From Phycisphaerae bacterium (GTDB lineage: Bacteria > Planctomycetota > Phycisphaerae > UBA1845 > Fen-1342), in the NCBI GenBank assembly GCA_028279405.1, contig JANQNU010000087.1, positions 1-64,000 of the forward strand: a stretch of DNA of 64,000 nt, in the 5' to 3' direction. Below the pieces are notes generated by a model that was not told where the DNA came from, searched no databases, and was given only the letters and a program-made list of their open reading frames with translations. The position numbers were made by a program, and so were the translations under genes. Positions 30,190 to 55,205 of the stretch are shown piece after piece (positions within the stretch are counted from its first letter, which is position 1; the number at the start of each line of letters is the position of its first letter).

Positions 30190-32334
30190 TCAGGTAAGTT
30201 CGATTGGAAGGCCGCTACGTGCCGCACGGACAGCGGCGAAGCTGGCGCGGGTCACTTCGTCAAGCTCCGCGAACGGGATGAGTGGTTCGCTGCCGGCCTG
30301 GATTGCGTCGAGAAACGCGCGCACTTCCGCTTTGTGTCCCTTGTCTTGACGCGCCGTGCGTTTCCGAGCGCCTGGCCAGTCGTACGGGCGCAATGTTCGC
30401 CAGTTGTCGATCTCCAACACGCGGCCTTCGCTGAAGATCTCGATTCGTTCCTTCGGGAACGACTTGCCGCCGTTGGCCCAGTAGTGGATCGTGCCGAGCG
30501 AGCCGTCGGCGAACCGTAGCGAGATGCTCATCTTGTCTTCTGCCAGGGGGCCGGCCTGCTCGCCGAACATCGTGGCGTAGACGGTCGTTATCGGGTGTCC
30601 CACCAGCGCACGCAACAGGTCGATGAAATGACACCCCTCGCCGACGATCCGCCCGCCACCGACGAGCGGATCCTGGGTCCAGTGGTTCGCGGGGATGTGA
30701 CCGGCGTTTACCAGACAGTTGATCGCGAGCGGCTGCGAACGGCCCTTGAGCATCGTCAGCGCTGTTTGCGTGTGGGGGGCGAACCGTCGATTGAACCCCA
30801 CCATGATCTGACGGTCGGAATGGTCGCGGTGCGCCGCCTGGACCGCCTCGAGCCCCTCTTCGTCGATCGCAAGCGGCTTCTCGACAAACACGTGCTTACC
30901 AGCCGCGATCGCCTCTGACACCATGCGCGCGTGGCTCGCGTGCCGCGTCGTGACGAAAATCGCGTCGACGTCGTCCCGATCGAGCACGGCCCGATAATCG
31001 CTGCCGGCCTCTTCCGCATCGAACTTTCGGCTGGCATGCAGCCCGGTGACACCGCCGGCGCTGATCACGGAATGGATGGGAGCGCCTGCCGCCTTGATCG
31101 CGGGCAACAGCACCAGCTTGGTGAAGTTCCCCGCACCGACCACCGCCACACGCGGACGCGTCGGAAGCGGTTGTGTCGGTCGAACGTTCCCATTCAATCG
31201 GATCGTGCGTTGTGTGGGCGGCGACTGCTCGGGATAGGTCAAGACGACGCCGAGCACGCCGGCATCGTTGAGGATCGCGTCATAGGCGTCCGGCGCGTCC
31301 GCTTGTGCGATTCGGCGGGTGATCAGCGGATCGATCTTCAGCCAGCCTTCGCGCATGGCATCGAGCAGTGCCTCGAAGTTGCGACCTTCGGTCCAGCGAA
31401 CGTACGGTAGCGGATAATCGCGTCCCTGGTCCTCGTAGGTCGTGTCGTAGCGGCCCGGACCGTACGAGCACGAGACCTGGAAGTGCAGTTCCTTCTCATA
31501 GAAGTCGCTACGCCGAAGGTTCAGTCCCACGACGCCGACCAGGATGATACGGCCGCGCTTGCGCGACATCGCGGCCGCTTGCTGCATGATCTCGTCGCTT
31601 TTGGCCGAGGCGGTAATCAGCACGCCGTCGGCACCACGCCCCTGCGTGAAGGCTTCGGCTGCCTTGACCGGATCGCCTCCGTCAGCGAGCGCGACCGTTT
31701 CCGCGCCGAATGATCGGGCCAGTTCGCACCGCTGGGGATTGACGTCGACTCCCAGCACGGGGCAACCGTGCGCGCGGAGGATTTGGACCGCGATCTGTCC
31801 GAGCAGGCCGAGTCCGACGACGACGAAACGTTCGCCGAACGTTGGCTCGAGCAGGCGAATACCGTGCAAGGCGATCGAACCCAGGACCGTGAAGCTCGCA
31901 GCGTCGTCAGCGACGTCATCCGGCACCTTCGCACAGAGCGTCGCCGGCACGCATACCATCTCCGCATGCGGGCCGTTGCTGATGACGCGGTCACCGACAC
32001 TGAACTCGGTGACGTCGCGGCCGACTTCGACGACCCGGCCGACGTTGCAATACCCGAGTGGCAGCGGCTCGTCGAGTCGGCTGAACACGGTCTCGAGTGT
32101 CGGCAACAGGCCGTCCGTGCGAATCTTCTGCAGCACCTGTTTGACTTTGTCGGGCTGCGCGCGGGCTTTTGCCAGCAGGCTCCCTTTGCTGAACTCGACC
32201 AGCATCCGCTCCGTGCCAGCGGAGATGAGCGTACGAGTCGTTTGCACGAGCACGTGCCGCGGTCGCACGATCGGACAGGGCACGTCCGCAACTTCGATCT
32301 GACCACTACGAAGGTGTTGAAGGATTTGTTTCAT
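30190..32334 (-). CDS. Bi-domain oxidoreductase: Zn-type alcohol dehydrogenase fused to Gfo/Idh/MocA domain
   Basis: A 714-residue fusion. The N-terminal half (about 1-375) is a medium-chain dehydrogenase with GDRVISNGPHAEMVCVPATL and the nucleotide-binding VVVGLGLLGQIAVQ. The C-terminal half (from about 395) is a Gfo/Idh/MocA oxidoreductase: VAVVGAGNFTKLVLLPAI, the active-site EKPLAIDEEG, and GGGRIVGEGCHFIDLLRAL. Such fusions occur in surface-polysaccharide clusters, where they are thought to oxidise a sugar nucleotide or alter a sugar during synthesis; the reaction here is not known. It is the last gene of the polysaccharide operon, its ATG overlapping the glycosyltransferase stop by four bases. 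Confidence 0.9.
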   Translation of the reverse strand: MKQILQHLRSGQIEVADVPCPIVRPRHVLVQTTRTLISAGTERMLVEFSKGSLLAKARAQPDKVKQVLQKIRTDGLLPTLETVFSRLDEPLPLGYCNVGRVVEVGRDVTEFSVGDRVISNGPHAEMVCVPATLCAKVPDDVADDAASFTVLGSIALHGIRLLEPTFGERFVVVGLGLLGQIAVQILRAHGCPVLGVDVNPQRCELARSFGAETVALADGGDPVKAAEAFTQGRGADGVLITASAKSDEIMQQAAAMSRKRGRIILVGVVGLNLRRSDFYEKELHFQVSCSYGPGRYDTTYEDQGRDYPLPYVRWTEGRNFEALLDAMREGWLKIDPLITRRIAQADAPDAYDAILNDAGVLGVVLTYPEQSPPTQRTIRLNGNVRPTQPLPTRPRVAVVGAGNFTKLVLLPAIKAAGAPIHSVISAGGVTGLHASRKFDAEEAGSDYRAVLDRDDVDAIFVTTRHASHARMVSEAIAAGKHVFVEKPLAIDEEGLEAVQAAHRDHSDRQIMVGFNRRFAPHTQTALTMLKGRSQPLAINCLVNAGHIPANHWTQDPLVGGGRIVGEGCHFIDLLRALVGHPITTVYATMFGEQAGPLAEDKMSISLRFADGSLGTIHYWANGGKSFPKERIEIFSEGRVLEIDNWRTLRPYDWPGARKRTARQDKGHKAEVRAFLDAIQAGSEPLIPFAELDEVTRASFAAVRAARSGLPIELT

Positions 32335-36270: not shown

Positions 36271-37191
36271 TCAATCACGATAGCCGATCCGTTTGTTCCA
36301 GTTGCCCGCAAGCCGCTCAAAAACCTGCAGGTCGTCAGCGGTCAGTTCTTCCCGCCAGCGTTCGTCGAGCCGAATTCGGCGTTCGGTGGTCCGAAATCGC
36401 ATTGGGTTTCCGCCGATATCGTGGGCCACGTCCTTGCGCAGCTCGATCATTGCCGGATCGAACGGGACGCCGAGAAATTCGCAGATCCGCGCGACCGAAC
36501 CTGCGGGGTCTGCACAGATCGACTCGTATCGGACCCGGCAGACCTGCGAATCGGGTATTGTCGACGATGCCCAGGATAACGAGCGCATGGTGGTCACCCA
36601 ATCGCGGATCGCGCGTTCGAGCGAGATCTTCTTTCGCCGAACGGCTGACGCCACGATGGCGCGCCCGTCGCGCATCAGCAGAATCAGGCGAAAGCTACGC
36701 GGCTCGGTCAGGTAGAGCGCCTTCAATCGTCGGGCGTCCTTCGATGAATCCAACAGGACGCTTGTCCCCGTATGCTCCCGAATGACGTCGTACCAGAACA
36801 ACGAGTTTTTGCAGGCTTCATGATGAGCGCGCGTGAGCCAGGGCGCCACCGCGAGATATAGCGGGCGGTTGCCCATCACCAGCAGCAGCTTCTGCACGCG
36901 GTCGGCTACCCGCCCGACTTCCTCCGGACGGAGCATCGTCTCCAATTCGGTGAGAAGGTCGTCTCGTGTCGCACCGAGTCGCTGCCGGCCCAAGGCCTCC
37001 ACCGCGAGCCAGAAGGGGCATTTCGTAACAGGCTCTCCGCAAGTGCAGGTTTCGTGATTCGTCCGTGCATACCAACAGAGCCGTGAGACCTCGCCCACCG
37101 CCTGGATCTGCGGGTTGTTGTTGAGAATGAGGTCGAGCATCGTAGACCCGCACCGCTCGGAACCGCCGATGTACGCGAGTAGCCCTGCCAT
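36271..37191 (-). CDS. Sulfotransferase family protein
   Basis: A 306-residue PAPS-dependent sulfotransferase. The 5'-phosphosulfate loop is YIGGSERCGSTMLDLIL, and the 3'-phosphate site is LLMRDGRAIVASAVR. A Cys-rich segment TCTCGEPVTKCPFW, frequent in bacterial members, lies near residue 50. In this operon it probably transfers sulfate to a sugar or lipid-linked repeat unit, making a sulfated surface polysaccharide. It lies 30 bases from the polymerase gene and 77 bases from wecB. Confidence 0.9.
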   Translation of the reverse strand: MAGLLAYIGGSERCGSTMLDLILNNNPQIQAVGEVSRLCWYARTNHETCTCGEPVTKCPFWLAVEALGRQRLGATRDDLLTELETMLRPEEVGRVADRVQKLLLVMGNRPLYLAVAPWLTRAHHEACKNSLFWYDVIREHTGTSVLLDSSKDARRLKALYLTEPRSFRLILLMRDGRAIVASAVRRKKISLERAIRDWVTTMRSLSWASSTIPDSQVCRVRYESICADPAGSVARICEFLGVPFDPAMIELRKDVAHDIGGNPMRFRTTERRIRLDERWREELTADDLQVFERLAGNWNKRIGYRD

Positions 37192-37268: not shown

Positions 37269-38360
37269 TCAGCAGCCACTCAGAATCTCCGCAATCCGCT
37301 CCGCGGCACGGCCGTCCCATTTCTCCGGGACCGGTGGGGCGTCGAGCCGCGCCGCCCGGCAGGCACGATAGGCTTCGATGATTCGCGTACTGTCCGTACC
37401 GACCAGCCTGTTCGTCCCCTCGGTCATGGTAACCGGTCGCTCCGTATTCTCACGAAGCGTCAGACACCAGACGCCCAGGATCGTGGTCTCTTCCTGAATC
37501 CCGCCGGAGTCCGTCAACACCACCGCCGCGTTTGCGGTCAGCTTCAGGAAATCCAGATATCCCAGCGGCTCGATGATCCGCAGGTTCTTCAACGCCGCCA
37601 CTCGGTCGGCGACGCCCAGTTTCGTCAGGTTGTTTCGTGTTCGCGGATGCATCGGAAAAACGATCGGCAGGTCCGCCTCGATCGCCTCGAATGCCGTCAG
37701 TATCCGACCCAACGTCTCCGGATCGTCGACGTTGCTCGGGCGGTGCAGCGTCGCGACGTTGTACCCGCCGCGTTCCAGACCTAGGTTGGCCAATATCGAC
37801 GACTGCTCAGCTTTCTCACGATTCGCCCGCAGCGTGTCGATCATCACGTTGCCGACGAAATGAACCTTCTCCGGCGCGACCCCTTCATTCTTCAGATTCT
37901 CCAGCCCGCTCGGCTCGGTGACGAACAACAGATCGGAGATCGAGTCGGTCAGCACGCGGTTGATTTCCTCCGGCATGTGGCGGTCGAAGCTCCGCAGCCC
38001 GGCCTCCACGTGCGCTACTCGCACATGCAGCTTCGAGGCCACCAGAGCGCACGCAATCGTGCTGTTCACATCTCCTACGACCAGCACCCAGTCCGGTTCG
38101 TGGTCGTTGACCACCTGTTCGAACCGGGTCATGATCTCGGCAGTCTGCTTGGCATGGCTTCCCGAGCCCACCTCCAGGTTCAGGTCCGGCTCCGGAATAT
38201 CGAGCTGCCGGAAGAACAGATCCGACATCCGTTCGTCGTAGTGCTGGCCCGTATGTACCAGGACCGGATCGATGTTCCCGTGGTTCCGATAAGCGCGCAT
38301 CAGCGGCGCGATTTTCATGAAATTCGGTCGGGCACCGCAGATGTTGATTATCTTGATCAT
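37269..38360 (-). CDS. wecB: UDP-N-acetylglucosamine 2-epimerase, non-hydrolysing
   Basis: A 363-residue enzyme that interconverts UDP-GlcNAc and UDP-ManNAc. The opening MIKIINICGARPNFMKIAPL, VHTGQHYDERMSDLFF, VVGDVNSTIACALVA, VAHVEAGLRSFDRHMPEEINR and LTDSGGIQEETTILG are hallmarks. The ATG at 38360 is the family start; an upstream extension to 38474 is not family-like. It is the first gene of the minus-strand polysaccharide operon and would supply an N-acetylmannosamine-type precursor. Confidence 0.96.
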   Translation of the reverse strand: MIKIINICGARPNFMKIAPLMRAYRNHGNIDPVLVHTGQHYDERMSDLFFRQLDIPEPDLNLEVGSGSHAKQTAEIMTRFEQVVNDHEPDWVLVVGDVNSTIACALVASKLHVRVAHVEAGLRSFDRHMPEEINRVLTDSISDLLFVTEPSGLENLKNEGVAPEKVHFVGNVMIDTLRANREKAEQSSILANLGLERGGYNVATLHRPSNVDDPETLGRILTAFEAIEADLPIVFPMHPRTRNNLTKLGVADRVAALKNLRIIEPLGYLDFLKLTANAAVVLTDSGGIQEETTILGVWCLTLRENTERPVTMTEGTNRLVGTDSTRIIEAYRACRAARLDAPPVPEKWDGRAAERIAEILSGC

Positions 38361-38518
38361 GGACCCTGCTTCCAACAAATGTACGGTCATCAACGCGAAG
38401 ATAGCGTAACCGCAAGCCGTACCTTTTTTCCAGCCGGACCGATCGCATGCGCGGTTTTTGCGCTGGGCGCTCACCGAGTCGCCGGCAAAACTCGTCGCCG
38501 GTCAGAACGGAGCTGTCT

Positions 38519-39430: not shown

Positions 39431-40606
39431 CTACGGTTGCGGCTCAGGCACCGGGATTGGGAACGGCTGGGAGCGCCCGGAAGGCTGGGATGTCGGCGGC
39501 TCGATCGGCTTGACCTCGTCAGCGCGGCGAAGGGTGAGTTCGGCCCGAATCCGCTTCCCGTCGCGATCTACCGCCACTGACACGGTCTGACCCGCTGCCA
39601 GCGTTGCCAGTGCCCGTCGCAGATCGAGCGGTCGATCGACCGCGTGGCCATCCAACTCAACGATCCGATCCGCGGCTTCGAGACCGGCATCCATCGCCGG
39701 CCCGTCTTCGGCGAGCCGTTCGATACGGACGCCCGACGGACTGTCGTCACCGACCGCCCGATCCCCTTTGCTGGTCAGAATCCCGAGCACGCCGGCGTGC
39801 CAGTCCGTTCCGGATCGCAGTGCCTCGAAACGCTGGTTGAGATGATCATGGGTGACTGCGAATCCGATCCCGGAGTCGTACCATTCGACTCCCGCGATCT
39901 CATCGGTCCCGCGTCCGGCCTTCGGGATGCAGATCCCGATCAATCGACCCTCGATGTCCAGCAACGGGCCGCCGTAGTTCGCCGGCGAGGTCTTTGCATC
40001 CGTCTGGGCGCAGAGACCCTCGTTGCGCCGCAACCCGCTGATGACGCCGACGCTGAGTGCCGGCTTCGCGCTGCCATAGCCCAATCCCGCGGTCAACGCC
40101 CATTGACCGGGTCGCAGCCCTTCGAGCGGCGCGCGCGGGGGAGTCGGCAAGTCCTCTGTTTCGATCTTCAGCAGGGCAAGCTGTGCCACCCGGTCACGCG
40201 CGACGAGGTGCGCAACGAATCGCTTACCGTCAGCGAGTGTGGCGGTGATGATTGCCGGTTGGCGGACGAAGTTGAAGCTGCTCGTGAGGATGTACCCGTC
40301 CCGGGTCCAGAGGACGCCGGTCGTCGGGCCATCCGCTTGCCGAAATGTGGCCGCGACCACGGTATCGCCGCCACGATCCTGAATCTCGCGCACGGCTTGG
40401 GCCCCACCGATCGTATCGATCCTGACGATCGTAGGCGCGATCCGTTCGAGTGCCGCCTGAAAGACCTGCCGTTGGTGCGTGCGGAGCGCGGTCGCCGAAA
40501 TCGCAGCCTCATCGGCTCGGCCGGCCGGCGCGCTCCCAGCAAGAATCAGGAGTAGTGGCAGTAGTTGCCACCGAATGCCATCCACAACCGGTCGGTTCCG
40601 CGTCAC
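39431..40606 (-). CDS. Degenerate trypsin-like (S1C) PDZ protein, inactive paralogue 2
   Basis: A 391-residue secreted protein of HtrA/DegP type with a C-terminal PDZ domain (DAGLEAADRIVELDGHAV). The signal peptide is at about residues 13-31. The catalytic triad is gone: the His position of the intact neighbour (LTNFHVV) reads LTSSFNFV with Phe111, the Asp position reads VAQLALLKI with Gln142, and the Ser position (GNSGG) reads ANYGG with Tyr211. It is therefore a pseudoprotease, although the fold and PDZ domain are preserved. The GTG start at 40606 overlaps the upstream stop codon as TAGTG, and GGAG lies eight bases before. It is the last gene of the 13-gene operon. Confidence 0.9.
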   Translation of the reverse strand: MTRNRPVVDGIRWQLLPLLLILAGSAPAGRADEAAISATALRTHQRQVFQAALERIAPTIVRIDTIGGAQAVREIQDRGGDTVVAATFRQADGPTTGVLWTRDGYILTSSFNFVRQPAIITATLADGKRFVAHLVARDRVAQLALLKIETEDLPTPPRAPLEGLRPGQWALTAGLGYGSAKPALSVGVISGLRRNEGLCAQTDAKTSPANYGGPLLDIEGRLIGICIPKAGRGTDEIAGVEWYDSGIGFAVTHDHLNQRFEALRSGTDWHAGVLGILTSKGDRAVGDDSPSGVRIERLAEDGPAMDAGLEAADRIVELDGHAVDRPLDLRRALATLAAGQTVSVAVDRDGKRIRAELTLRRADEVKPIEPPTSQPSGRSQPFPIPVPEPQP

Positions 40607-41658
40607 TACGATTCTCCAGCGGATGCCAGTTCGATGAGGACGACGTCGTCCGCACGCTTGACGAAGAGCGATAATGGCGTTTGCGGCTCCAGCGCCTGCA
40701 ACGCGGTACGAACGTCGTTGCACGTCGCGACCGATTCGTCATTGATCGCCAGGATCAGGTCGTTGGCGCGAAGCCCAGCCGTATGCGCCGCCGATGCGGC
40801 TCGAACGCGTTCAACGTACGGCGGCCGGACACGTCCCCCCACATCCAACAGGCGAAGACCGAGTTGCAGCAGCCGCTTCTCCGCCGCTGCACGCTCGGCG
40901 GTCGGGTCCGGGCGCGTTCGGGCCTCGACGGCATCCGGTGCCAGGACGAAAGTCGCCACCTCCGCCACCGGCAGGGCATAGTTGACCCACGTATTCGTGC
41001 GCGTGCTGACGACGGGGCGACCGATGACTCCGACCAGATTGCCGCGGGCATCGACGAGCGCGCCGCCTGCTGCGCCCGGAGCGCTGACCACGACGTCGGT
41101 CAACAATACCTCCCCATCGTATGAAAAGTCCTGACGTCGATGACGGGCTGCGAGTCGCGTGCGCGCGGCGATGATCCCGGCAGCTACCGATACCGGCTCG
41201 CGGCCGCTCGCAACCTTGAACGGGTTGGCGGCTGCAATGACCCAGTCGCCGGTCCGGACGTGACTGTCGCGTGTTACGTCGAAGTAGGGCAGGTCGCGAA
41301 CATCGATCTTCAGCAGCGCCAACTGACGGTAGGGGTCGCGCGCAATGAGTTCGGCTGCATAGCTGGAACCATCCGCCAGCACCGCACGCAACGAGCGCCC
41401 TTCCAGCATCAACGACGTCGCGGTGACGATCCGACCGTCGGGTGACACGAGCACGCCCGACCCGTACGCCTTCTGCCGTCCCATGCCGGCTCCGTACAGC
41501 TTCACCACCCGCGGCCGCGCGATCTCGATGGCACGGTCGAACGGACCGGTGGCCGGTCCACCCCCAGACGCTGAGTTGCTCAGCACGGCCAGGCAAATGA
41601 ACAGACGCCAGGCGCGCAGGGCGGACGGTCGGGTGATCGCAGGACGCTCAACGCTCAT
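40606..41658 (-). CDS. Degenerate trypsin-like (S1C) PDZ protein, inactive paralogue 1
   Basis: A 350-residue secreted protein with the S1C fold and a C-terminal PDZ-like domain (TAGLRANDLILAINDESVAT). A signal peptide covers residues 1-30. All three catalytic residues are replaced: Ser82 for His (VTATSLM), Gln112 for Asp (RDPYRQLALLKI) and Ala197 for Ser (APGAAGGAL). The replacements differ from those of the other paralogue, so the losses were either independent or followed by divergence. The ATG overlaps the intact protease's stop codon (ATGA). Confidence 0.9.
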   Translation of the reverse strand: MSVERPAITRPSALRAWRLFICLAVLSNSASGGGPATGPFDRAIEIARPRVVKLYGAGMGRQKAYGSGVLVSPDGRIVTATSLMLEGRSLRAVLADGSSYAAELIARDPYRQLALLKIDVRDLPYFDVTRDSHVRTGDWVIAAANPFKVASGREPVSVAAGIIAARTRLAARHRRQDFSYDGEVLLTDVVVSAPGAAGGALVDARGNLVGVIGRPVVSTRTNTWVNYALPVAEVATFVLAPDAVEARTRPDPTAERAAAEKRLLQLGLRLLDVGGRVRPPYVERVRAASAAHTAGLRANDLILAINDESVATCNDVRTALQALEPQTPLSLFVKRADDVVLIELASAGES

Positions 41659-43292
41659 CCGTCACCCGTTCGCTCGTTTGTCGGCGTACGTTCCATATGA
41701 CCGAACGTCAGCGTGATCGTACGCTCTCGTGCTCCAGACGCTACGGACCGACGTTCCCAGGTGCGAGGCCAGCTCGTTTCGTCGCCGGTTGCGCGTTGCG
41801 GCGTCCAGCGCGCGAGTACGACATCGTCCTGGCCGAGTCGCGCTTCGCGCAGGACGTCGGTCGGCCAGTCCGTGATCCACTGAACCCAACGATCGTCGGC
41901 GTATCGGCGTTCGATCACCGTCGCCACGCCTCCCGCGACGCGATCGGTTGCGCGAACCTTCCAGTCGAGGCTTGCGGTAGTTCCGTGGACCAGCGGCTGC
42001 GTCACTCGCAGCCACTCCTGCCAGATATGCGCGTCGTCGGACGCTGCCTCGGCATCCAGCGCGATGGTCTCATTGACACCATCCTCAACTAGCAGCTCGA
42101 GCCGATCGCGGTATTGCGTACCGCGCACGCGTGTCGTCGCGCTCTGACGCTTGACGGTGGCCGCCCACTCGATCGCCGAACCGTCTTCGGTCGGCGCCAA
42201 CGAGCCGGCCGCGGCGTTGAGTATCCGATGGATCTCGCGTTGCGCCTGTTGCGGGTCGGGAATGAACGGTGCGCCCAACCGCGACGGCAGTTTTTCGAGC
42301 CGTGCGGCGAGCGTGTGTCGTTGGCCGTTGCGTTCGAGGACCAGTTGGACAGGCCAGTCTGCCGGCAGGATCGCTAGTTGGTTGTTGTACTCGTTGGTCG
42401 TATGGATGCGTCGACCGTCGATCGAGACCAGTACGTCACCGAGTTGAATGCCGGCGGTCTCGGCTGGCGACAACGCCTGTAGCGCGTCAAAGATCAGGTC
42501 GTCGCCGGCCGCTTGGACCGTTGCGCCGAGTGTTCCGTGATGGCACAACAGTCCCGCGCGCAGCGGGGGAATGAAGCGTTTGACCTGGTTGATGGTAACG
42601 GCGTATCCGAGGCCGACGTTCACCCGACCACGTTCCTCGAACGACGCTCGGCCGTTGATCCCGATCACGCGTCCCTCGAGGTCGAAGAGCGGACCGCCGG
42701 AGTTGCCGGGGTTGATCGACGTCGAAACCTGGATGCAGTCGGCGTACTCAAGCAGATTGCCTTCGCCTTCCTGGTAGCGATGCAAGCCGCTGATGATGCC
42801 GACCGTTATGGTCGGTGTGTAGTCTTCTGCCACGAGAAAGGGGTTCCCCATCGCGGCTACCCATTGGCCGACGGCCAACTGGTCCGAGTCACCGAGCGGC
42901 GCCGGGTCGAAGCGTTGTCGACCGCTGAGCTTGAACATTGCGATGTCGCCGCCAGGGTCGATCCCAAGCACTTCGAGCGGGTAGAGTCGCCCGTCGTTGA
43001 GCCCGCCGTAGCCGCGTCGTTTCTCGAGAAACGGCGCCACGACGTGGAAGTTGGTCAACCCGAAGCCGGCCTCGTCGATGATCACACCGCTTCCGCCCCC
43101 CTCGCCGGTACGATCGCCAAAGATGCAGACGACACTTTTCGCTGCCCGCGTGAATACGGCGACGCGTCGCGCTTCGTCTGCTCGGACGGCGTCGAACGAC
43201 GCGGTGCTGTCAGCCGCCAGCGCGGCGCCGGTGACGAGCGCCAGCAACCAACAGGTCTGCAAATGGCGCGACCAGCGACCGCCCCCGCTCAC
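41655..43292 (-). CDS. Trypsin-like (S1C) serine protease with PDZ domain
   Basis: A 545-residue secreted HtrA-type protease with an intact triad: His83 in GLTNFHVV, Asp116 in DPGGDIAMFKL and Ser198 in PGNSGGPL. A PDZ domain follows (PAETAGIQLGDVLVSIDGRRI), then a C-terminal part of about 200 residues with no recognised similarity. The signal peptide is at residues 7-27. The GTG at 43292 overlaps the NPCBM gene stop as GTGA, matching other junctions of the operon; an ATG at 43319 is an alternative. The protease should act in the periplasm, and its two inactive neighbours may regulate or scaffold it. Confidence 0.92.
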   Translation of the reverse strand: MSGGGRWSRHLQTCWLLALVTGAALAADSTASFDAVRADEARRVAVFTRAAKSVVCIFGDRTGEGGGSGVIIDEAGFGLTNFHVVAPFLEKRRGYGGLNDGRLYPLEVLGIDPGGDIAMFKLSGRQRFDPAPLGDSDQLAVGQWVAAMGNPFLVAEDYTPTITVGIISGLHRYQEGEGNLLEYADCIQVSTSINPGNSGGPLFDLEGRVIGINGRASFEERGRVNVGLGYAVTINQVKRFIPPLRAGLLCHHGTLGATVQAAGDDLIFDALQALSPAETAGIQLGDVLVSIDGRRIHTTNEYNNQLAILPADWPVQLVLERNGQRHTLAARLEKLPSRLGAPFIPDPQQAQREIHRILNAAAGSLAPTEDGSAIEWAATVKRQSATTRVRGTQYRDRLELLVEDGVNETIALDAEAASDDAHIWQEWLRVTQPLVHGTTASLDWKVRATDRVAGGVATVIERRYADDRWVQWITDWPTDVLREARLGQDDVVLARWTPQRATGDETSWPRTWERRSVASGARERTITLTFGHMERTPTNERTGDG

Positions 43293-44536
43293 TGGATCAC
43301 CCGGACGAATGCCCAACACGCGTGATCGGCGAGGTCGAGGTCGTCACCGTATTCGACGGTCAGCGTCAACTCACGTACCCGACTGACATCGACGATGAAG
43401 TCGCGCGGCGGGTCACCGCCACGAATGTTCTCCCCTTCCCATAGCACCTCGTCGTCGCCCAGAATTCGCATCGTGACGTTGCCGCGACCCGGACCGACCT
43501 CGTCGAGGATTCCGGCCTTGCCGGCGAGCTTGCCCGCCTGACGTTCGAGCCGATAGGTCAGCCGCGATGCGCTGTGCATGACGATCCCCTTGGCGTACGC
43601 CTGGCCATCGAGCACGAGCGGAGCGCCGGTGAGCGATTCGTCTGTTGTGTACCGCCAGCGCACGCCGAAGAGCGGCTCATGCTCATAGCGCAGCGGTTTG
43701 AGGTCGGAGAGGAACACGAGTCGATCGCTGCGAACGTCGATGTGCGCAATCTCGCTCCAAGGGATCGACAACGATTCAAAGATCGACGACCGAACGATGA
43801 GCCGCTCGAGTCCGTCGACCTCGAGGGAACCGGCAAACCGATCCTGGTTCCGCAGGGTCACCAGTGCCCGACTGCCGCGCCGTTGCGGACTGGCCATGAC
43901 GATTCCGCCCACGCGTTTCCATGGCAGGGCGCGCTCCCGTCCGTTCCATACGAATCGGACGCGCTCGGCGCCGATGCTCTCGACGACACCCCGCAGCACG
44001 AGTGCCTTACCGGCACGGGCGATGACGACTGCATCGCGCGCGGCGCCATCGCGGTCACGCTTGTCGCGGAGTTCGTTCAGCTGATTGCGAACGGGCGCAG
44101 CGGAATCGGCGCGCACCATCGTGCTGATGATCTCTGCCGGCACGACGCCGCGGTGCCTCTTGCGGAAACGGATCGAGACGCCGTCAGAAGTTGCGTCGCC
44201 CAGCGCCACCGAAAATGCGCTACCGTCCGAAAGCTCGAGGCGGTAGGGCTCGACGGCGGCTTCAGACAATGATCGTTCGTCTTGCTGCGGCTCGATTCGC
44301 AGCACGTCCTCCCATGCGATCGTGCGGGTTTCTTCCGCGACTTGGACGACGATCGCGGGCGCCAGCGCCCGCGCGACGCCCATGACGCGGTCACCGTCCA
44401 GCAGACTGACCGCGATGACCAGCGGGTCCGTCGTGGCCGCTACCGCCGGCGCCGTGGCCGTAGGGTGTTGGGCACCGCGGGCAACGGGCGGCATCGTGCA
44501 GCATATGAGAATCGCGATCGACCCCGAGACCCTCAT
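43289..44536 (-). CDS. Secreted protein with C-terminal NPCBM-type domain
   Basis: A 415-residue secreted protein. The signal peptide ends near ARGAQ. About residues 30-270 hold beta-rich sequence with repeated ISW-type elements (TIAWEDVLRIEPQ, ALPWKRVGGIVMA, SIPWSEIAHIDVR), which resemble a SHD1/SM-like or bacterial Ig-like repeat that I cannot name with certainty. The last 140 residues match the NPCBM carbohydrate-binding module: KGIVMHSASRLTYRLE, GRGNVTMRILGDDEVLWEG and DVSRVRELTLTVEYGDD. GGAGGA precedes the ATG at 44536, which overlaps the upstream stop (ATGA). It could tether the operon's complex to polysaccharide. Confidence 0.83.
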   Translation of the reverse strand: MRVSGSIAILICCTMPPVARGAQHPTATAPAVAATTDPLVIAVSLLDGDRVMGVARALAPAIVVQVAEETRTIAWEDVLRIEPQQDERSLSEAAVEPYRLELSDGSAFSVALGDATSDGVSIRFRKRHRGVVPAEIISTMVRADSAAPVRNQLNELRDKRDRDGAARDAVVIARAGKALVLRGVVESIGAERVRFVWNGRERALPWKRVGGIVMASPQRRGSRALVTLRNQDRFAGSLEVDGLERLIVRSSIFESLSIPWSEIAHIDVRSDRLVFLSDLKPLRYEHEPLFGVRWRYTTDESLTGAPLVLDGQAYAKGIVMHSASRLTYRLERQAGKLAGKAGILDEVGPGRGNVTMRILGDDEVLWEGENIRGGDPPRDFIVDVSRVRELTLTVEYGDDLDLADHACWAFVRVIQ

Positions 44537-45522
44537 TTTTCCTCCGCCATCGATCGGTAGTATTGCTCGACGAGCTGACGATAGCGCGACGGGAAGCGAT
44601 TTCGCAACGATTGCAGAATGCGCTCGCGTTCGGATGGAGGGAGCTTGCCCCACATTTCGCCGGGGTCCGCTTTTGGCGCGGTGTGTAGTTCACCGACCTT
44701 ACCCGCACCAGGTGTCACGCGCGACTCTTCGAGCGGGTTCGACGGTGACTGTCGCTGGCCGCGGTTCTGGCGGCTGCCGCCACCACCGCCTTGACGCTGC
44801 TCGTTCTGCTCAGCCTGTTCGATCAGATTGTCGAGCAGTTCCACGATATGGTCCTGCTGGCGACGTACGGACTGCGAATCGTCTTCCGCCGCCAGGCGCG
44901 ACGCAGAATAGTCCATATAGTCTGCCACTTCGCCGAGTGTTCCACGCTCACGTCGCGACAGTTCCAGCTTCATCTGCTGCGCCGCGATGGCCAACGCCTC
45001 GCTTGTCTGCGGGTACTCCGTCGCCACTGTTTCGAGCGTCGCGGCTGTTTCGTCGAAGCGCAGATTGTTGAGTTGGCAATGGGCCAGCAGCAACAGGACC
45101 TGTGCCCCGCGCACGCTGTGCTGCGAATGACCTGTTGCGGGCGCGCTCCAGTCGAGCAGCAGCCGTTCTGCTTCTTCGAGCCTGTCGCGGGCCACCTCGG
45201 TCCGCGCCAGCCAGTATCCGCTCTCTGCTGAGAGAAACGGGTCGTCCGCGGCCTGGAGCTGTGCGAACCCACTCGCCGCGGCGTCGTAGCGTCCGTAGTC
45301 GAAGTGCGCGAGCGCGTCCGCAAACGCCGGTTCGAGCAGCGATAGCCCGCGCACAATCAGCTGAGTGTCCCGTGCTTCCATGTGCAGCGACGCCAGTTGT
45401 TCCGCGGACAACGTGCCGAGACCATCGACGTGCGCCAGAAACCGGTCGTGGAGTAGGAGAGCGTCGGTCGCCGACTCGTAAAACGGCAGCGCCATCAAGA
45501 TGATCACCAGCGTATTCATCAT
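44533..45522 (-). CDS. TPR-like helical protein
   Basis: A 329-residue, mostly helical protein. A short hydrophobic N-terminus (NTLVIILMALPFYESA) may be a signal sequence or anchor. Helix pairs resembling tetratricopeptide repeats are seen at FADALAHFDYGRYDAAASGFAQL and GYWLARTEVARDRLEEAERLLL. After about 215 it becomes Gln/Arg/Gly-rich, with QGGGGGSRQNRGQRQSPS, and ends in a helix. It lies between the coiled-coil and NPCBM genes, sharing four-base overlaps (ATGA) with both. Its role is not known; a scaffold in an envelope complex is plausible. Confidence 0.75.
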   Translation of the reverse strand: MMNTLVIILMALPFYESATDALLLHDRFLAHVDGLGTLSAEQLASLHMEARDTQLIVRGLSLLEPAFADALAHFDYGRYDAAASGFAQLQAADDPFLSAESGYWLARTEVARDRLEEAERLLLDWSAPATGHSQHSVRGAQVLLLLAHCQLNNLRFDETAATLETVATEYPQTSEALAIAAQQMKLELSRRERGTLGEVADYMDYSASRLAAEDDSQSVRRQQDHIVELLDNLIEQAEQNEQRQGGGGGSRQNRGQRQSPSNPLEESRVTPGAGKVGELHTAPKADPGEMWGKLPPSERERILQSLRNRFPSRYRQLVEQYYRSMAEEK

Positions 45523-47291
45523 CGTCGCTCGTTCATCTGCCGTGCCATCGTCGTCAGGCGCGCCTGTCGTTTCGCCAGCGTGCGATAGCGTTCCGTCTGG
45601 GTGCGATTCGCCTCGGCGTACTGCTTCGTGCGATCATTGATGCGCACCTGCGAAGCGCGGAGGAGCTTGAGTTCGGCCGAGCCGGGAAGCAACGCCGCGA
45701 CGCTGTTGCCGGGCCCGTCCTGCTCACCGCTCGGCTGGTTGTTCATCTGCTCCCGCTTCTGCTCGATGGCGCCGAGAATCTCCCGAATCGCGGCGATCAC
45801 GTCCTCCAGCAGCGTCGTCGTGGCGGCCGAGACGTCAACCGCTTCGAGATTCGCCCGTACGCCATCCATATCCGCCGCCAACTCGGCCACAAGTTCCGGC
45901 AGGATTACCGTCGTTCCTTCGTCGAGCAACAGCCGCCGGACCTGCCGACATTCCTCGACCATATCGAGCTGGCCCGCGGCAAGCTCGCGGATCGATACGC
46001 GATCGTCGCGGGAGAGTGCGTCCACCCGTGCCTGGAAGGCCGAAACGTCTTCGAGCAGAGTTTCTTGGTGCTGTAGCATTCGTTTGAATCGGGTTTCGAG
46101 CGCCGTCAGCGTTTCTTCCAATTCCTCTTCACGAACCTGTCGCAGTACATCCTCGATCTGCTCCATCGCGTCCTGCAGCGATTCGATCGCCTCTTGTTGC
46201 TCCTGTTCGGCGGAATTCGCGTCCTGCTCACCCAGTCGGTCGGCTGCGCGCTGCATCGACGACCGAGCGCGTTTCATCGATTGCTCGCTGGGCAGCGGCG
46301 CTTCATCCCCATCGGGCCGCATCTGCTGCTCCATCGATTCCGCCTGCTCCGCATGCCCCCGCTGCTGCCGTTCGATCGGTCGGACGTTCGCGCGTTTCTG
46401 CAACGCTTCGGCCTGTTGTTCGAGCCGTCGGATCGCACGTTGCAACGCCTCTGACGCTTTCTGCTGCTGCGCATCGCGTTGTTTGGCGGAATTGCGCGCC
46501 TCTGCTTCCGACTCTGTCGCACGCATCGCCTCGGCTGCGGATTGCATCGCTTTCGCCGCCTGCTCGGCATCGCGCGCCGCTTGCTGGCGCAAACGCTGAT
46601 CGTCCTCGGGCGCATCCGTGGCGCGCTTCAACTGTTCCGCCGCTGCGCGCGATTCCGCTGCGAGCTTCTCCTGCGCTTCGGCCTTCTTTGCTTCCGCGCT
46701 CGGTGCCTCGTCCGTTTGCTGACGGAGTTCGGCCTGCTCTTGCGCCAGCTTGCGCAGCGCTTCGGCCTCCGCCGCCAGCCGCTGGGCCCGCTCCAGCATC
46801 TGTTGCGCGGCGCGCGTTCGCTGCAGCGTTTCGATCTGCTCAGTTTGTAGTTGTTGCAAGGCCTGCCGCAGTCGCGCCAACCGCTCGCGCTCCGCGCGCA
46901 TCTGCTCGAGCTGGTCCTGCTTCTCGGTCAGCAGCGTGAGGATCGCTTCCAGCTCCTGCACGACCGAGCGCTGCTCGGCGTCCGCCGCGGAGAACTGTGC
47001 ATCGCGCAGCAGGCCGACAATCGTTTCGAGTCGGCGACCCACTTCACGTTCCCCCGTTCGCTGCAGTGCGTCGCGCAGCCGTTCTGCTTGCTCGGGCTCT
47101 GACTCGCCTACGGTCTGGGCCAGCTTGAGCATTCGCGCCTCGAGTCGCTCCAACCGGTCGCGCAACACCCTTTGCCGTCCAGCCAGCGAGCGGTCGCCCG
47201 TTTCATTGGCCGAAACCGCTCCCGGGGACGCTAATAGAAGCAGCGCCGATCCCGCAGAAACTACGATTAGCACCCCGATTCGCATAATCAT
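45519..47291 (-). CDS. Secreted long coiled-coil protein
   Basis: A 590-residue protein with an N-terminal signal (IGVLIVVSAGSALLLLASPGAVS) and an almost continuous coiled coil from about 35 to 320 and 355 to 440, rich in Ala, Glu, Gln and Arg (for example LARLRQALQQLQTEQIETLQ and LRKLAQEQAELRQQTDEAPS). The C-terminal 150 residues are helical and less repetitive. In-frame ATGs at 47291 and 47285 are both possible; the AGGA suits the second. The gene begins three bases after the DUF4175-like gene and overlaps the next by four. It looks like an extracytoplasmic spacer or scaffold. Confidence 0.8.
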   Translation of the reverse strand: MIMRIGVLIVVSAGSALLLLASPGAVSANETGDRSLAGRQRVLRDRLERLEARMLKLAQTVGESEPEQAERLRDALQRTGEREVGRRLETIVGLLRDAQFSAADAEQRSVVQELEAILTLLTEKQDQLEQMRAERERLARLRQALQQLQTEQIETLQRTRAAQQMLERAQRLAAEAEALRKLAQEQAELRQQTDEAPSAEAKKAEAQEKLAAESRAAAEQLKRATDAPEDDQRLRQQAARDAEQAAKAMQSAAEAMRATESEAEARNSAKQRDAQQQKASEALQRAIRRLEQQAEALQKRANVRPIERQQRGHAEQAESMEQQMRPDGDEAPLPSEQSMKRARSSMQRAADRLGEQDANSAEQEQQEAIESLQDAMEQIEDVLRQVREEELEETLTALETRFKRMLQHQETLLEDVSAFQARVDALSRDDRVSIRELAAGQLDMVEECRQVRRLLLDEGTTVILPELVAELAADMDGVRANLEAVDVSAATTTLLEDVIAAIREILGAIEQKREQMNNQPSGEQDGPGNSVAALLPGSAELKLLRASQVRINDRTKQYAEANRTQTERYRTLAKRQARLTTMARQMNERR

Positions 47292-47294
47292 ATC

Positions 47295-49484
47295 CTATGG
47301 CTTCGGAGCATCCTCGTCGAAATCTTCAAGCGGTTCGTCCTCGCCGAGGATGGCCTCGAGCTCCGTCTCCAGCGCCTGAAGCGTCTCGGTCCGCAGGGCA
47401 TCCTGATCGCTGATGAGCTGTTGCAGCAGTAGCACGGCTTCGCGGTAGCCCTCCCATTCGAGCATGTTTCCCAGCACGACCCGCATTTGCCGCAACACCT
47501 CGTTCTGCGCCGCCAGCGCGGCATCCTTTGATGGAGTGGAGCCATCCTGACGGAGTTGCCCGAGCACCTCGCCGGCATCCGGCATCGCCTCCGTCGCTAA
47601 CTCCCTCAACGGCGCGACGATACGGTCCAGGATACGGCGCTCGTCGGCGACGCGCGCTACTCGGCTCGACCGCATTTCCGCCAGGATCCGCTCGAACCGC
47701 TGCGCAATTGCTGCGCAACGCCCGGTGTGGGCGGCCTGCTGGCGAATCAGGCCGGTCAGCCGTTGACTTTCGCGCGGGCCCGCCGGGCCCGAGTTCGGGA
47801 GCGCTTCAAACAGCCGAACCAGCCCGTCCTGAATTCGTCGCTGGGCACTCATCAGACGCTCGAACTCCCGCCGAAGTTCCAGCTCACGTTCTGCCATCGC
47901 AGCCTGAAAGTCTTCGATCGAGACGACCCCGATTTCAATCACCGGCGTCTGCCCGACGTTCGGCCCCGCAGGATCGCGATCCGCTGCCGCCGCCGACAGC
48001 CGCAACCGATCGCCGGGCGTCACCCGCACGACGCGCGGTGCCCAAAGCTGACGTGCGGCGAACGTTCGTCCCTGGCTCGACAACTCCGGCAACGGGATCG
48101 CAAACAGCGGGTCCTCGTTTCGTTGCGCAGAGAGCGATACGCGCCCCAGGCCGTATGCGTCCTCGGCACGCAGCGCAATGTCGAACTCCGCCTTGGGCGT
48201 AATCAGCTCCCCGACATCCATCACTTCCATCTGAACGTCCGGCGGTTGATCCGCGCTGACCTTGATCGTGAAGGGTACCGGGTCTCGATTCTCGATCGTG
48301 TCCCGATCCAACAACTCGAACCGGTAGACGCCCGATTCCGGCGTCGGCAACGCGACCGTTACCAATGACCGTCCTTCTTCCTGACGCGTCGACAACGTCC
48401 CAACAGATTGCCCCTCAGCAGCCACGAACCGCGCGCGCTGAAGCGGTTTGTTGACCTCGGCCTCGATCGTGAGCGAGGCGCCCTGCAAGAGATCGAAGAC
48501 GGTCTGCTGTTCCAGTTCGAGCGTGTCCTGTCGCGTATAGGTCGGCGGAACGACAATCGCGCGCGTACGGACCAGACGCGGCCGTTCCACCGCAATCACC
48601 GTATACTCCGGCGTATTCTCATCACCACCGGTGATCTCAAACGTAACATCCTCAGACAGGACGCCGATCGACGCGAACAGTGTCTGTCCGCCAAGGCGCG
48701 TCATCGGCTCGCGACCCTTTCGTCCCGAGGCGGTTCGCCATCGCAACGTCGCTGTTTGCGGAACCTCACCCACGATCTTCGCAAACACTTCGAGTTCCTC
48801 ACCGCGCGGCATCCGCCTTCGAAAGTTGTCGAAGTGCTCCGGGACGATGTAGGTCCGTTGCGGCCACGCGAGGTCGGCCAGCAGCCAGTTCCGTTGAAAC
48901 CACACGTTCATCATCCCGGCGTCGATCAGGAACGCCGCGACAATCGTCAGCAGCAACGCGCCCGAGAGCATCCCGTTGCGCTGTGCGCGACGATGGTTCA
49001 GCACAGCGTCGAAACGTACTCGGCCCGCGGCGTCTGCCGCACCGCGCAAGACGTCCGCCACAAGCTCCGGCGATGTCTGGTCGTCCTGCGGCTGCGCGAC
49101 CTCTGACGCGTCCGTCGGTCGCGATTGTTCGGAGAACTCGACTGCGGTCGATAGCGCATCCGCCAGTTGCGGGTGTCTTCGATCCACCCAACCCGCAAGC
49201 GTCGCATCCGACAACGGCCGAAACAGCGGGGCGACCAAGTAACGGTGGATCACGATCAGCCAGCCCACGGTAATCGCAATGTTGAGAACGAGCCGCTGGT
49301 CCAGTGAGAGGCGCAGCCAGCGATCCAGCACCAGCTGGATCAAACCGGCGCCCAGCAGCGCCGCGAGCAGCCGCAGCACCCCGGCGACTACCAGGTACCA
49401 CCGTGTTCGACGGCGCAAGTTTCCCAACGGCGCGCGGATTTGCCGCTGGATTGCATGCTGGACATCAGGAGGCAGTGCGCTCAC
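47295..49484 (-). CDS. DUF4175-like membrane protein
   Basis: A 729-residue protein with three hydrophobic segments near the N-terminus (LVVAGVLRLLAALLGAGLIQLVL, LVLNIAITVGWLIVI and LLTIVAAFLIDAGM), followed by a large extracytoplasmic region with beta-rich, Ig-like character and then a helical C-terminal part. It resembles DUF4175-containing proteins that accompany MoxR/DUF58/VWA genes in other bacteria. The GTG at 49484 overlaps the upstream stop codon as GTGA and is preceded by AAGGA; the in-frame ATG at 49514 has no ribosome binding site. Function unknown; likely part of the membrane complex. Confidence 0.78.
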   Translation of the reverse strand: MSALPPDVQHAIQRQIRAPLGNLRRRTRWYLVVAGVLRLLAALLGAGLIQLVLDRWLRLSLDQRLVLNIAITVGWLIVIHRYLVAPLFRPLSDATLAGWVDRRHPQLADALSTAVEFSEQSRPTDASEVAQPQDDQTSPELVADVLRGAADAAGRVRFDAVLNHRRAQRNGMLSGALLLTIVAAFLIDAGMMNVWFQRNWLLADLAWPQRTYIVPEHFDNFRRRMPRGEELEVFAKIVGEVPQTATLRWRTASGRKGREPMTRLGGQTLFASIGVLSEDVTFEITGGDENTPEYTVIAVERPRLVRTRAIVVPPTYTRQDTLELEQQTVFDLLQGASLTIEAEVNKPLQRARFVAAEGQSVGTLSTRQEEGRSLVTVALPTPESGVYRFELLDRDTIENRDPVPFTIKVSADQPPDVQMEVMDVGELITPKAEFDIALRAEDAYGLGRVSLSAQRNEDPLFAIPLPELSSQGRTFAARQLWAPRVVRVTPGDRLRLSAAAADRDPAGPNVGQTPVIEIGVVSIEDFQAAMAERELELRREFERLMSAQRRIQDGLVRLFEALPNSGPAGPRESQRLTGLIRQQAAHTGRCAAIAQRFERILAEMRSSRVARVADERRILDRIVAPLRELATEAMPDAGEVLGQLRQDGSTPSKDAALAAQNEVLRQMRVVLGNMLEWEGYREAVLLLQQLISDQDALRTETLQALETELEAILGEDEPLEDFDEDAPKP

Positions 49485-51895
49485 AGCAGATGATTCCTTC
49501 GTCGCAGGGTCCATTCAAGCGCCAGCAGGCCGGCCAGTATCGCCATCACCCACCAGCGATCCCATAGTGACTCCGGCTGAGCCCCGCGGGTTACGATCGT
49601 TTCGCTCGCGTTGGTAATCAGGCCGGTCAGTTCGTGGGCATCCGCGATCGGTCGATACGCACCCCCAGTACGGTCAGCCAGCGTTCGAAGCAGGTCCGCA
49701 CGCAGCCGCAAGGTCTCCATCTCGACGTCCGGCTGTTGCACGCGTACCCGGCGCGCGAGCATCGTCTCCTCGTCGTCGTTGGGCGGAAGCGGCACCTCAA
49801 TCATCGCCGGGCCGGCGATCTCGAACAGGACGCGCGCCGCGAACCAGCCCGGCCGGTCAGGAATCGCGTTCATGCGTACTGTACGCCGTGTCATATCGTC
49901 ACCGAAGCGAATCTGTGCCTCGGTCGTTGGCTCGAGCCAGGGGGCGAACATATTGTCCAGGACGCGCGCTTCGATCTTCACGAAATCGCCGGCCTCGACG
50001 ATCTCGCGGTCGAGCAGGATCGTTCCGCGCTTGCTTCCTCCTTCGCGACGCGGTTGCGCCAGGTAGCGAATGATCTGCGTCCAGAAGCGGGTGAAGTAGG
50101 GTTCCGCGGTGGCGCGCCAGCGCCAGCTCGAGTCGAACCCCAGGTAGACCGTGCGCCCAGCGCCGGTCGGTTGAGTCGCGAAGAGCACGGCGGGTCCGTG
50201 AACCGTGCGTTGGCTGGGATTGCTGTGTTGAGTGAGCACCGTTGCGATCGGCTTGGCACGCTGGACCGGGTAGTACCAGAACACGCCGGGAAGCGCCGTC
50301 CAGATCGCTTCGTTGGTCGTCGGCTCGTTGGAGAACGAGACCAGCGGATGCGCGAGGCTCTCGCGCGGCACCTCGAAGGTCGACGCGTCCGGGCGGAACG
50401 CCCCGCGCTCGCCGAGCCAGACGTCCGCATCGGGGTCCGGGACGACCGGGAGGAGACTGACGAGATCCTCCATCCGAACGTCGCGCAGGAACCGCGACGT
50501 AAAGTGCGGACCGGCCTCCACCAGCAGCCCGCCGCCAAACTCGTCGACGAAGCGCCGGACTGCCACAGCCCAGGCCGAGTCGAATTCGGCCGGGTTCGGG
50601 TCCATGAGCAGAATGCAATCGTACGCGAACAGTGATTCAGTGCTGCGGGGAAGCTCGGTGATCACGGTGTTGCCATCGCGGATCGCCTGCGGGTCAGCTG
50701 ACTGCAACCAGCAGCTCACGTCAACGCTCTTGTCGCGTTCGAGCATCCGGACCAGATGGCGATAATCAAACGACGGCCGACCGGCGACGATCAGCACCCT
50801 AAAACGCTCATCCAGCACCTGGACCGCGATCTCTCGCACGTTGTCGCTCGTTACCGCCTCGCCCGCGACGGTATCCAGTCGAACGCGGTAGAGCTGTTCG
50901 CCGGCCGTCGTCGGCGTGATTTGAAACGTGTGCGGTACCGTCGGTCGATCTTGAGCAAACGTGATGTCGCGGGCTTCGACCGGAGATTCGCCCATCGCCG
51001 CTGACTCATCGATCACGCGTGCCAGTTGCAGCCGGGACGTGGCGCCCGGGAGTCCACCCGCTGCGCAGTCGACGCGGAGCTCGAACGGATCACCAAGCCG
51101 GACGGTCGGCGGGGCGGAGAGCCCAGTAACGCGGAGGTTGGGCGGTTCCGCCGCCGCGCCTACGCCGACGGTGTACAAGCGTGCCTTCTTTCGACGGGCA
51201 TAGCTGACGATCGCGTCCGGAGCCATTCCCTTGTTGTTGGCTCCGTCCGTGATCAGAATCACGCCGGCGATCGCTTCCTGTCCCAGGTCTTTCAAAGCGC
51301 CGACGACGGCTTGTCCCAGATCGGTCCGGTTGCGCAGGGCCGTGTCGCCGACGATCGGCGCCGTTGGCGAGGGGGGAACGCTGAGGGTAGGAGGTTCCGC
51401 ATCGGCGGCCAGTTCCCACGGCAACGGCCGGCGCGCCATGTCGTCGCCGAACACGTACAGATTCAGTGGATTCTGGGCGTCCAGAGCGCGCAGCCATGCA
51501 TGATCGTCCTGGTTCAGCAGGGTCCGAACGCGATCGATGCGGGTCGCGGCGGTGGCTCCTGTGTTTTCCGCGTCGCTGATCTCCATGCTGGCGGAGACGT
51601 CGTATGCGACGACGACATGCGCATCACGTGTGCTTTCCAGGTAAGTTGCGATGACCGGCTCGAGCCAGATTGCGCCAAGGCCAACGAGCACCAGCGTCCG
51701 CAGGGTCGCAAGTCCGCGCCGCAAGGCCGCGCCGGCACCGGCTCGTCCTTCACGGGCGTATAGGAAGAAGATCAGCGCCACGATCGCGAACAGAGCGACG
51801 AACAGGAAGAAACCCGTCCAGCCGCCCGTCAGGCCCGGAAACTCGAGTTCCCGTCGGCGCGAATCGACTTGTCCAAGAAGTGCAAGTATGGCCAC
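49481..51895 (-). CDS. Membrane-anchored VWA protein with glutamine-amidotransferase-like region
   Basis: An 804-residue protein. TM helices lie at about 28-46 and 67-83, and one more at the C-terminus (WWVMAILAGLLALEWTL). The VWA domain begins with the metal-binding DVSAS (99-103), with TRTDLG-like and VILITDGANNKG elements. Later, RVLIVAGRPSFDYRHLVRML and LLVEAGPHFTSRFLRDVR suggest a class I glutamine-amidotransferase-like fold, probably not catalytic, as seen in many large VWA proteins. GTG at 51895 is the only good start, with AAAGGGAG just before it. It follows the BatA-like gene by 11 bases. Confidence 0.86.
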   Translation of the reverse strand: MAILALLGQVDSRRRELEFPGLTGGWTGFFLFVALFAIVALIFFLYAREGRAGAGAALRRGLATLRTLVLVGLGAIWLEPVIATYLESTRDAHVVVAYDVSASMEISDAENTGATAATRIDRVRTLLNQDDHAWLRALDAQNPLNLYVFGDDMARRPLPWELAADAEPPTLSVPPSPTAPIVGDTALRNRTDLGQAVVGALKDLGQEAIAGVILITDGANNKGMAPDAIVSYARRKKARLYTVGVGAAAEPPNLRVTGLSAPPTVRLGDPFELRVDCAAGGLPGATSRLQLARVIDESAAMGESPVEARDITFAQDRPTVPHTFQITPTTAGEQLYRVRLDTVAGEAVTSDNVREIAVQVLDERFRVLIVAGRPSFDYRHLVRMLERDKSVDVSCWLQSADPQAIRDGNTVITELPRSTESLFAYDCILLMDPNPAEFDSAWAVAVRRFVDEFGGGLLVEAGPHFTSRFLRDVRMEDLVSLLPVVPDPDADVWLGERGAFRPDASTFEVPRESLAHPLVSFSNEPTTNEAIWTALPGVFWYYPVQRAKPIATVLTQHSNPSQRTVHGPAVLFATQPTGAGRTVYLGFDSSWRWRATAEPYFTRFWTQIIRYLAQPRREGGSKRGTILLDREIVEAGDFVKIEARVLDNMFAPWLEPTTEAQIRFGDDMTRRTVRMNAIPDRPGWFAARVLFEIAGPAMIEVPLPPNDDEETMLARRVRVQQPDVEMETLRLRADLLRTLADRTGGAYRPIADAHELTGLITNASETIVTRGAQPESLWDRWWVMAILAGLLALEWTLRRRNHLL

Positions 51896-51906
51896 GCTCC
51901 CTTTCG

Positions 51907-54270: not shown

Positions 54271-55205
54271 GTTGCATTCTCCTCCTCGTCCGGGTGCGGC
54301 GCCGTGGCCATCGGCCGCGCACCACCTCGACGGCTCAAGTACCCGCAGACCGTCACGTCCAGAGGGTCGCGTGTGCTCGTTGGGACGTAGTCCGCGCGCA
54401 ACTTCAGGCAGACCGCCCGCAGCCGGGATGTAAACCGCTGGACGGCCCGTCGGTAGCTTTCCTGGAGCCCCTGCGGATCGGCGAACAGTCGCGCGGGGCT
54501 CTCCAACCCCTCGAACTGCACGTTCTCGACGAACGGCAACTCCCATTCGTCCGGGTGCATGACGTGGAAGACGATGAGTTCGTGCCCGGTGTGTGCCAGG
54601 TGCTCGAAGCCCGCGACGATCGCATCCGGCTCCGCCAGCAGATCGCTGATCAACACGACGACCGAGCGCCGACGCAACTCCTCGGAGAGCCGATCGAGCA
54701 GCAGCTTGACACGTGTTTCGCCAGTCGGGTCACTCGATTCCAGAATCTGTAGAATATTGGTGAGCTGCTGCTGTCCGGTCGCTGCCGGGATCCGCGTGCG
54801 AACTTCGTTATCGAATGTGACCAGCCCGACGTGATCGTGCTGCGCGACGACGAGATATGCCAGGCTCGCTGCCAGTCGGCAGGCATAGTCGAACTTGTTC
54901 TCGCTGGCGCTGCCGTAGGCCATCGAGCGACTTACGTCGAGCAGGATGTTCAAGCGCAGGTTGGTCTCTTCCTCGTACTGCTTGATGAACAGCCGGTCCT
55001 TGCGGCCGAATAGCCGCCAGTCGACGTGTCGGATATCGTCCCCGGGAACGTACGGACGGTGCTCCGCGAACTCGACGCTGTAGCCGCGGTAGACGCTACG
55101 GTGCATCCCCGAGACGGCGCCGGAAACCGCGCCGCGGGCGCGCAGCTCCAGCCCGCGCAACCGGGCGATGACCTTAGGATCCAAGTACTTCCTGGATACG
55201 GGCAT
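54267..55205 (-). CDS. DUF58 domain protein (VWA-like)
   Basis: A 312-residue cytoplasmic protein of the DUF58 family, the standard partner of MoxR ATPases. The family signature [19 protein letters not shown] is at 50-68, and the VWA-like metal site begins with [11 protein letters not shown] (90-95). ATG at 55205 is preceded by GAGGGG. The start lies 32 bases inside the end of the MoxR gene. In other systems MoxR and DUF58 act together in chaperone-like assembly of metal- or VWA-containing complexes. Confidence 0.94.

Follow-up and report, generated by a model that had tools for sequence, protein, structure and literature searches.

An HtrA-type protease encoded with two conserved non-catalytic paralogues in a planctomycete MoxR-type operon

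Introduction

HtrA enzymes are textbook homotrimer-based proteases whose activity is controlled across subunits. In HtrA/Deg proteases the protease domains form trimers, with the PDZ domains at the rim (PMC4877387). Degenerate members have been described: MamO is a degenerate HtrA that is needed for proteolysis by MamE and is itself non-catalytic (PMC4794232), and an inactive protease domain of plant Deg7 is reported, in work cited in PMC3473262, to serve trimerization. Here, we describe a locus within the first 64,000 nucleotides of contig JANQNU010000087.1 (GenBank assembly GCA_028279405.1; hereafter, the window) from a Phycisphaerae bacterium, in which the gene for an intact HtrA-type protease, G1, is followed by genes for two pseudoproteases, G2 and G3. 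The source genome comprises 5.6 Mb in 92 contigs, and its closest named relatives are Phycisphaerae/Planctomycetota metagenome assemblies. HtrA pseudoprotease partners are already known, and the trio is a variant with two dead copies. No description of planctomycete HtrA pseudoproteases or of the trio operon was found among the open-access papers covered by the search.

Results

The three genes lie side by side on the minus strand, with G1 at 41655 to 43292 (545 amino acids, GTG start), G2 at 40606 to 41658 (350 amino acids) and G3 at 39431 to 40606 (391 amino acids, GTG start). Each product has a signal-peptide-like N terminus, suggesting export to the periplasm, and a Trypsin_2 domain followed by a PDZ domain, which is the arrangement of the HtrA/Deg (S1C) proteases. 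At the aligned sites of the catalytic triad, G1 reads H83/D116/S198, G2 reads S82/Q112/A197 and G3 reads F111/Q142/Y211, and HMMER alignments of the three proteins to solved DegP/DegQ/HtrA chains gave the same positions. The initial annotation had named these residues, and the alignment reproduced them exactly; it had also proposed that the fold and the PDZ domain were kept in all three proteins, in agreement with the Pfam matches. The couplings that it gave, ATGA at the G1 stop/G2 start and TAGTG at the G2 stop/G3 start, were borne out, and a further one, GTGA, was found where the stop of the upstream NPCBM gene meets the start of G1.

The best matches of G1, G2 and G3 among solved structures were HtrA chains. 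The structural model of the window G3 had a predicted local distance difference test score (pLDDT) of 86.5 and a predicted template modeling score (pTM) of 0.80, and it aligned with Deg1, DegQ, DegS and other HtrA structures at Z scores of 26 to 28 over ~290 to 310 residues (27.7 for Deg1 and 26.9 for DegQ), consistent with a predicted HtrA fold. The trio did not fall within the described magnetosome families, scores for the NCBIfam equivalogs being at most 109 bits for MamE and at most 43 bits for MamO, against a cut-off of 800.

The catalytic sites were then compared over distinct loci. G1 read H-D-S in 79/79 distinct sequences. In G2, His was found at site 1 in 0/84 sequences and Ser at site 3 in just 2/84, with a complete triad in neither; the lost sites were mainly Ser, Gln, Ala or Pro, and some G2 proteins (the Pirellulaceae form) read S-H-V with the Asp kept and with Ala or Gly in place of the serine. 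H, D or S occurred at the triad sites of none of the 94 G3 sequences. Site 1 of G3 was Phe in 91, site 2 was Lys, Arg, Met or Gln, and site 3 was Tyr in 88 and Phe in 6. The Gln seen at the Asp site of the window G3 was limited to a few genomes, with Lys or Arg in most relatives. Sixteen more G3 sequences, taken from the most divergent genomes, all had Tyr at the nucleophile site, raising Tyr/Phe to 110/110. Judged by the triad, G2 and G3 are non-peptidase homologues, and conservation in relatives excludes loss of the triads by chance. H-D-S was retained by the four other HtrA-type proteases of the source genome and by the ordinary HtrA paralogues of trio-bearing genomes.

The lost sites of G3 are surrounded by the signatures SSFNF and SPANYGGPL, and its sites 1 and 3 exceed ~85% of columns in conservation. 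Since the replacement residues are themselves conserved, G3 appears to hold a constrained pseudo-active site and not a decaying one. The lost sites of G2 were under less constraint than those of G3.

Ratios of nonsynonymous to synonymous substitution (dN/dS), calculated by the Nei-Gojobori method for the 40 closest pairs, were about 0.03 to 0.22 for G1, 0.03 to 0.19 for G2 and 0.05 to 0.18 for G3, and this held in pairs with unsaturated dS. For G1/G2/G3, the values were 0.046/0.029/0.054 between loci L163 and L169, 0.153/0.139/0.152 between L076 and L077, and 0.082/0.089/0.060 between L121 and L125. Broken copies were rare. An in-frame TAG was present between the protease and PDZ parts of G3 in L075 and L117, and G2 of L156 was split across two frames by a possible frameshift; assembly error is possible in each case. 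Relaxed selection, which the initial annotation had named as a sign that would speak against retained roles, was therefore not seen, the dN/dS of G2 and G3 equalling that of G1.

Orthologues of the three genes shared an identical set of 39 genomes among 61 relatives, with no case of a paralogue missing beside a conserved protease. In a phylum-wide set of 394 Planctomycetota genomes with completeness of at least 90%, the first thresholds detected G1 in 133, G2 in 132 and G3 in 119, with any member in 134. When the discordant genomes were rechecked, G3 was present in every one; genome G562 had a weaker G2 between G1 and G3, and G487 had a single frame matching both G1 and G2. After these rechecks, the full trio was present in 133/134 genomes holding any member, counts that come from related genomes and are hence not independent events. 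The sole exception was G359, a fragmented assembly of 1,340 contigs in which G2 was not detected. Absence of the paralogues beside a conserved protease, the second contrary sign named beforehand, was thus confined to that one genome. Together with the dN/dS values, this co-occurrence lends good support to the maintained non-catalytic roles initially proposed for G2 and G3. Recurrence in relatives and across the phylum rules out an oddity of one genome's lineage, and a sequencing or assembly artefact is ruled out by the trio's independent occurrence in over 100 genomes. Judging by the best 80 of 267 relatives' loci, the trio is likely confined to Planctomycetota.

A tree was built from 65 members of the trio together with four further HtrA proteins, and in it G1, G2 and G3 each formed one clade with 100% support in the Shimodaira-Hasegawa-like approximate likelihood ratio test (SH-aLRT). 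Each clade contained both Phycisphaerae and Pirellulaceae/Planctomycetaceae-type sequences, so the trio is old and predates the families sampled. G1 and G2 are separate genes in the window but formed one uninterrupted frame, the equivalent of a Deg7-type single polypeptide, in 13 of the 79 distinct loci of the relatives, and further same-frame cases were found phylum-wide (e.g., genomes G219, G428, G436, G465 and G520). About six changes between the fused and split states were counted, at least five of them forced by starred branches, on a quick tree that carries SH-aLRT support only and from which the direction of change was not inferred. The C-terminal ~200 amino acids of G1 (41658 to 42275, minus strand) match no Pfam family, vary in presence between clades and form the spacer in some fusions; the spacer between the G1 and G2 units varies in length by clade, with or without this region. 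The recurring fusion of G1 to G2 is the best evidence for a direct partnership.

The order NPCBM-G1-G2-G3 was observed in 70 loci, with 11 more in which G1 and G2 were fused, some contigs being counted twice. In genomes G010 and G037, G3 was apart from G1-G2, yet all three genes were retained. G3 of the Pirellulaceae type (L139:5824-7971, L130:5926-8025 and L141:5680-7878) was extended at the C terminus by ~300 residues, which gave additional PDZ matches or a weak alpha/beta-hydrolase match, and in one genome (L123:1000-7170) G3 formed the C-terminal end of a 2,057-amino-acid open frame.

The trio ends an operon-like run of eleven overlapping or closely spaced genes on the minus strand, from 56322 to 39431, and this operon is of a planctomycete type. 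It opens with a MoxR-type AAA+ ATPase (55174 to 56322; AAA_3, E value 7.7e-64), which begins the chaperone part, followed by a DUF58/VWA protein (54267 to 55421 as called, the true start possibly being internal) and a protein with a BatA N-terminal domain and a VWA-like domain (51907 to 54546). Next come two large proteins without a Pfam match, one of 855 amino acids that marks the operon (49481 to 52048) and one of 739 amino acids that is kept in it (47295 to 49514), a coiled-coil-rich protein also without a Pfam match (45519 to 47291), a TPR protein (44533 to 45522) and the NPCBM-domain protein (43289 to 44653), which overlaps the G1 start and lies immediately 5' of G1 in ~80 loci. The MoxR AAA+, DUF58, BatA N-terminal domain and TPR genes that characterize MoxR/Bat-type operons are thus all present. 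A direct role in anti-phage defence was rejected, as PADLOC assigned the genes of the operon to no defence system, apart from weak matches to trypsin domains.

Elsewhere in the window, a squalene-hopene-cyclase-like repeat protein (56355 to 57437) precedes MoxR, as it does in relatives, and lies directly downstream of a 1,442-amino-acid protein with BamB/PQQ-type beta-propeller matches (57441 to 61769, minus strand). A 714-amino-acid protein (30190 to 32334, minus strand) combines a Gfo/Idh/MocA oxidoreductase with zinc-type alcohol dehydrogenase domains and adjoins polysaccharide genes, namely, a WecB-like gene (37269 to 38474) and a sulfotransferase-like gene (36271 to 37191). A Ser/Thr protein kinase with TPR repeats is encoded at 21529 to 23826 on the plus strand. 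An Rfam scan of the whole window gave no match.

Discussion

The trio probably constitutes one functional unit, in which the exported HtrA protease G1 is served by two dedicated, non-catalytic subunits. The data suggest that the role of G2 and G3 is to direct G1 or to assemble it. A mixed assembly is the simplest model because three paralogues of one operon, one live and two dead, are always together, with the live one repeatedly fused to a dead one. G1, G2 and G3 would most likely co-assemble through the trimer interface of the HtrA protease domains, probably as a mixed trimer, with G2 and G3 supplying trimer contacts and allosteric control and with their PDZ domains recognising a substrate or partner. 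The number of active sites in such a unit would be lower than in a homotrimer, and G1 would work only alongside G2 and G3. To our knowledge, HtrA complexes have otherwise been described as homotrimer-based. The MoxR-DUF58-BatA part may act as a membrane AAA+/VWA remodelling machine that is co-regulated with the periplasmic protease, and the role of the whole could be envelope quality control or the maturation of a particular envelope complex.

The idea of a mixed oligomer fits the repeated G1-G2 fusions, and several points weigh against it. Physical association is something that we infer, as are the trimer stoichiometry, the regulation of G1 and the link to MoxR, and catalysis by G1 is predicted from its sequence. 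When a naturally occurring fusion of G1 to G2 was modelled with AlphaFold2 (pLDDT 78, pTM 0.67), the result displayed two HtrA units with an interface that could not be read, and neither this model nor its Protein Data Bank search was counted as evidence for contact. The weaker constraint on the lost sites of G2 than on those of G3 implies that the two may differ in role. Finally, a MoxR-DUF58-BatA-TPR-NPCBM operon without the trio was found in L085, L086, L087 and L089, from other families of the order, and in L076 and L077 the trio sits away from most of the MoxR operon. The MoxR link is therefore loose, its parts being associated but separable. A more specific version, in which the trio is a phylum-specific HtrA of fixed 1:1:1 heterotrimeric composition, each trimer having a single active site and two specialised dead subunits and being coupled to a MoxR-VWA AAA+ machine, can be offered only tentatively and is somewhat improbable as a whole.

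Of the competing explanations, the one that survives best, unlikely as we consider it, holds that G2 and G3 work on their own in the envelope, as scaffolds or peptide binders that hold partners by means of PDZ domains and a filled substrate cleft, and that they form no oligomer with G1 and co-occur with it through a shared pathway only. Such a role would agree with the PDZ domains retained in both proteins, with the extra C-terminal region of the Pirellulaceae-type G3 and with the genomes in which G3 is encoded apart from G1-G2. The repeated in-frame fusion of G1 to G2 and the near-perfect co-occurrence favour a stoichiometric partnership instead. Less probable again, and improbable on balance, are dead copies that have acquired a site for a ligand or a metal and serve as sensors, switching G1 on without lasting contact. 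MamO offers a precedent, since it activates MamE non-catalytically, binds metal and makes no detectable contact with MamE (PMC4794232), and the fixed replacements in G3, with Phe, Lys/Arg and Tyr at the three sites, also speak for this reading. No metal-binding residues were evident in G2 or G3, where no search aimed at such residues was made; the TauE domain that MamO needs is absent from the trio, and the fusions of G1 to G2 speak for contact.

It is very improbable that G2 and G3 cleave proteins by means of a catalytic apparatus that is displaced or of an unusual kind. The shifted His and kept Asp of the Pirellulaceae-form G2 and the Tyr that occupies the very position of the nucleophile in G3 invite the thought, but these G2 proteins have no serine at the serine site, G3 is without a His-Asp pair, and we know of no Tyr nucleophile in the trypsin clan. 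Functionless decay of duplicated proteases, for which the loss of all catalytic residues and the occasional broken copies could be cited and to which we give next to no credence, is refuted by purifying selection equal to that on G1, by the phylum-wide conservation of the replacement residues and by the co-occurrence of the trio.

By always retaining one live copy with two dead ones, and by repeatedly fusing live to dead, the lineage provides a natural experiment on why inactive subunits would be needed by a protease and on how HtrA allostery passes between neighbours. The trio also provides a testable partner for the widespread MoxR-BatA operon, the function of which is poorly known. Annotation is corrected as well, as domain matches likely label such genes as serine proteases though many cannot be active.

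Comparison with known systems

The upstream part of the operon, with its MoxR, DUF58/VWA, BatA and TPR genes, resembles the MoxR-VWA chaperone systems NorQ/NorD (PMC9976466), RavA-ViaA (PMC10585395) and the Bat operons (PMC3557215); the abstracts of those papers report no HtrA trio. In the MoxR-vWA-VMAP conflict systems, VMAP is the third conserved component (PMC7159879). ClpP/ClpR likewise brings catalytic and non-catalytic paralogues into one protease and has long kept them together, but its fold is unrelated and it is ATP-dependent (PMC7966870). AtDeg5/AtDeg8 are HtrA paralogues that associate, as is proposed here for the trio, but both are active and their complex is built from homotrimers (PMC4877387). 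Deg7 places an active and a degenerate HtrA domain in one chain (PMC3473262), like the natural G1-G2 fusions, and differs in being non-bacterial and in having four PDZ domains, whereas the fusions have two and are always accompanied by G3. The MamE/MamO pair shares with the trio an active HtrA encoded beside a degenerate paralogue (PMC4794232); it has one pseudoprotease instead of two, namely MamO, which includes a TauE transporter domain and belongs to the magnetosome island. What sets the trio apart from MamE/MamO, Deg7 and ClpPR is a pair of different dead HtrA copies that has been retained across a phylum.

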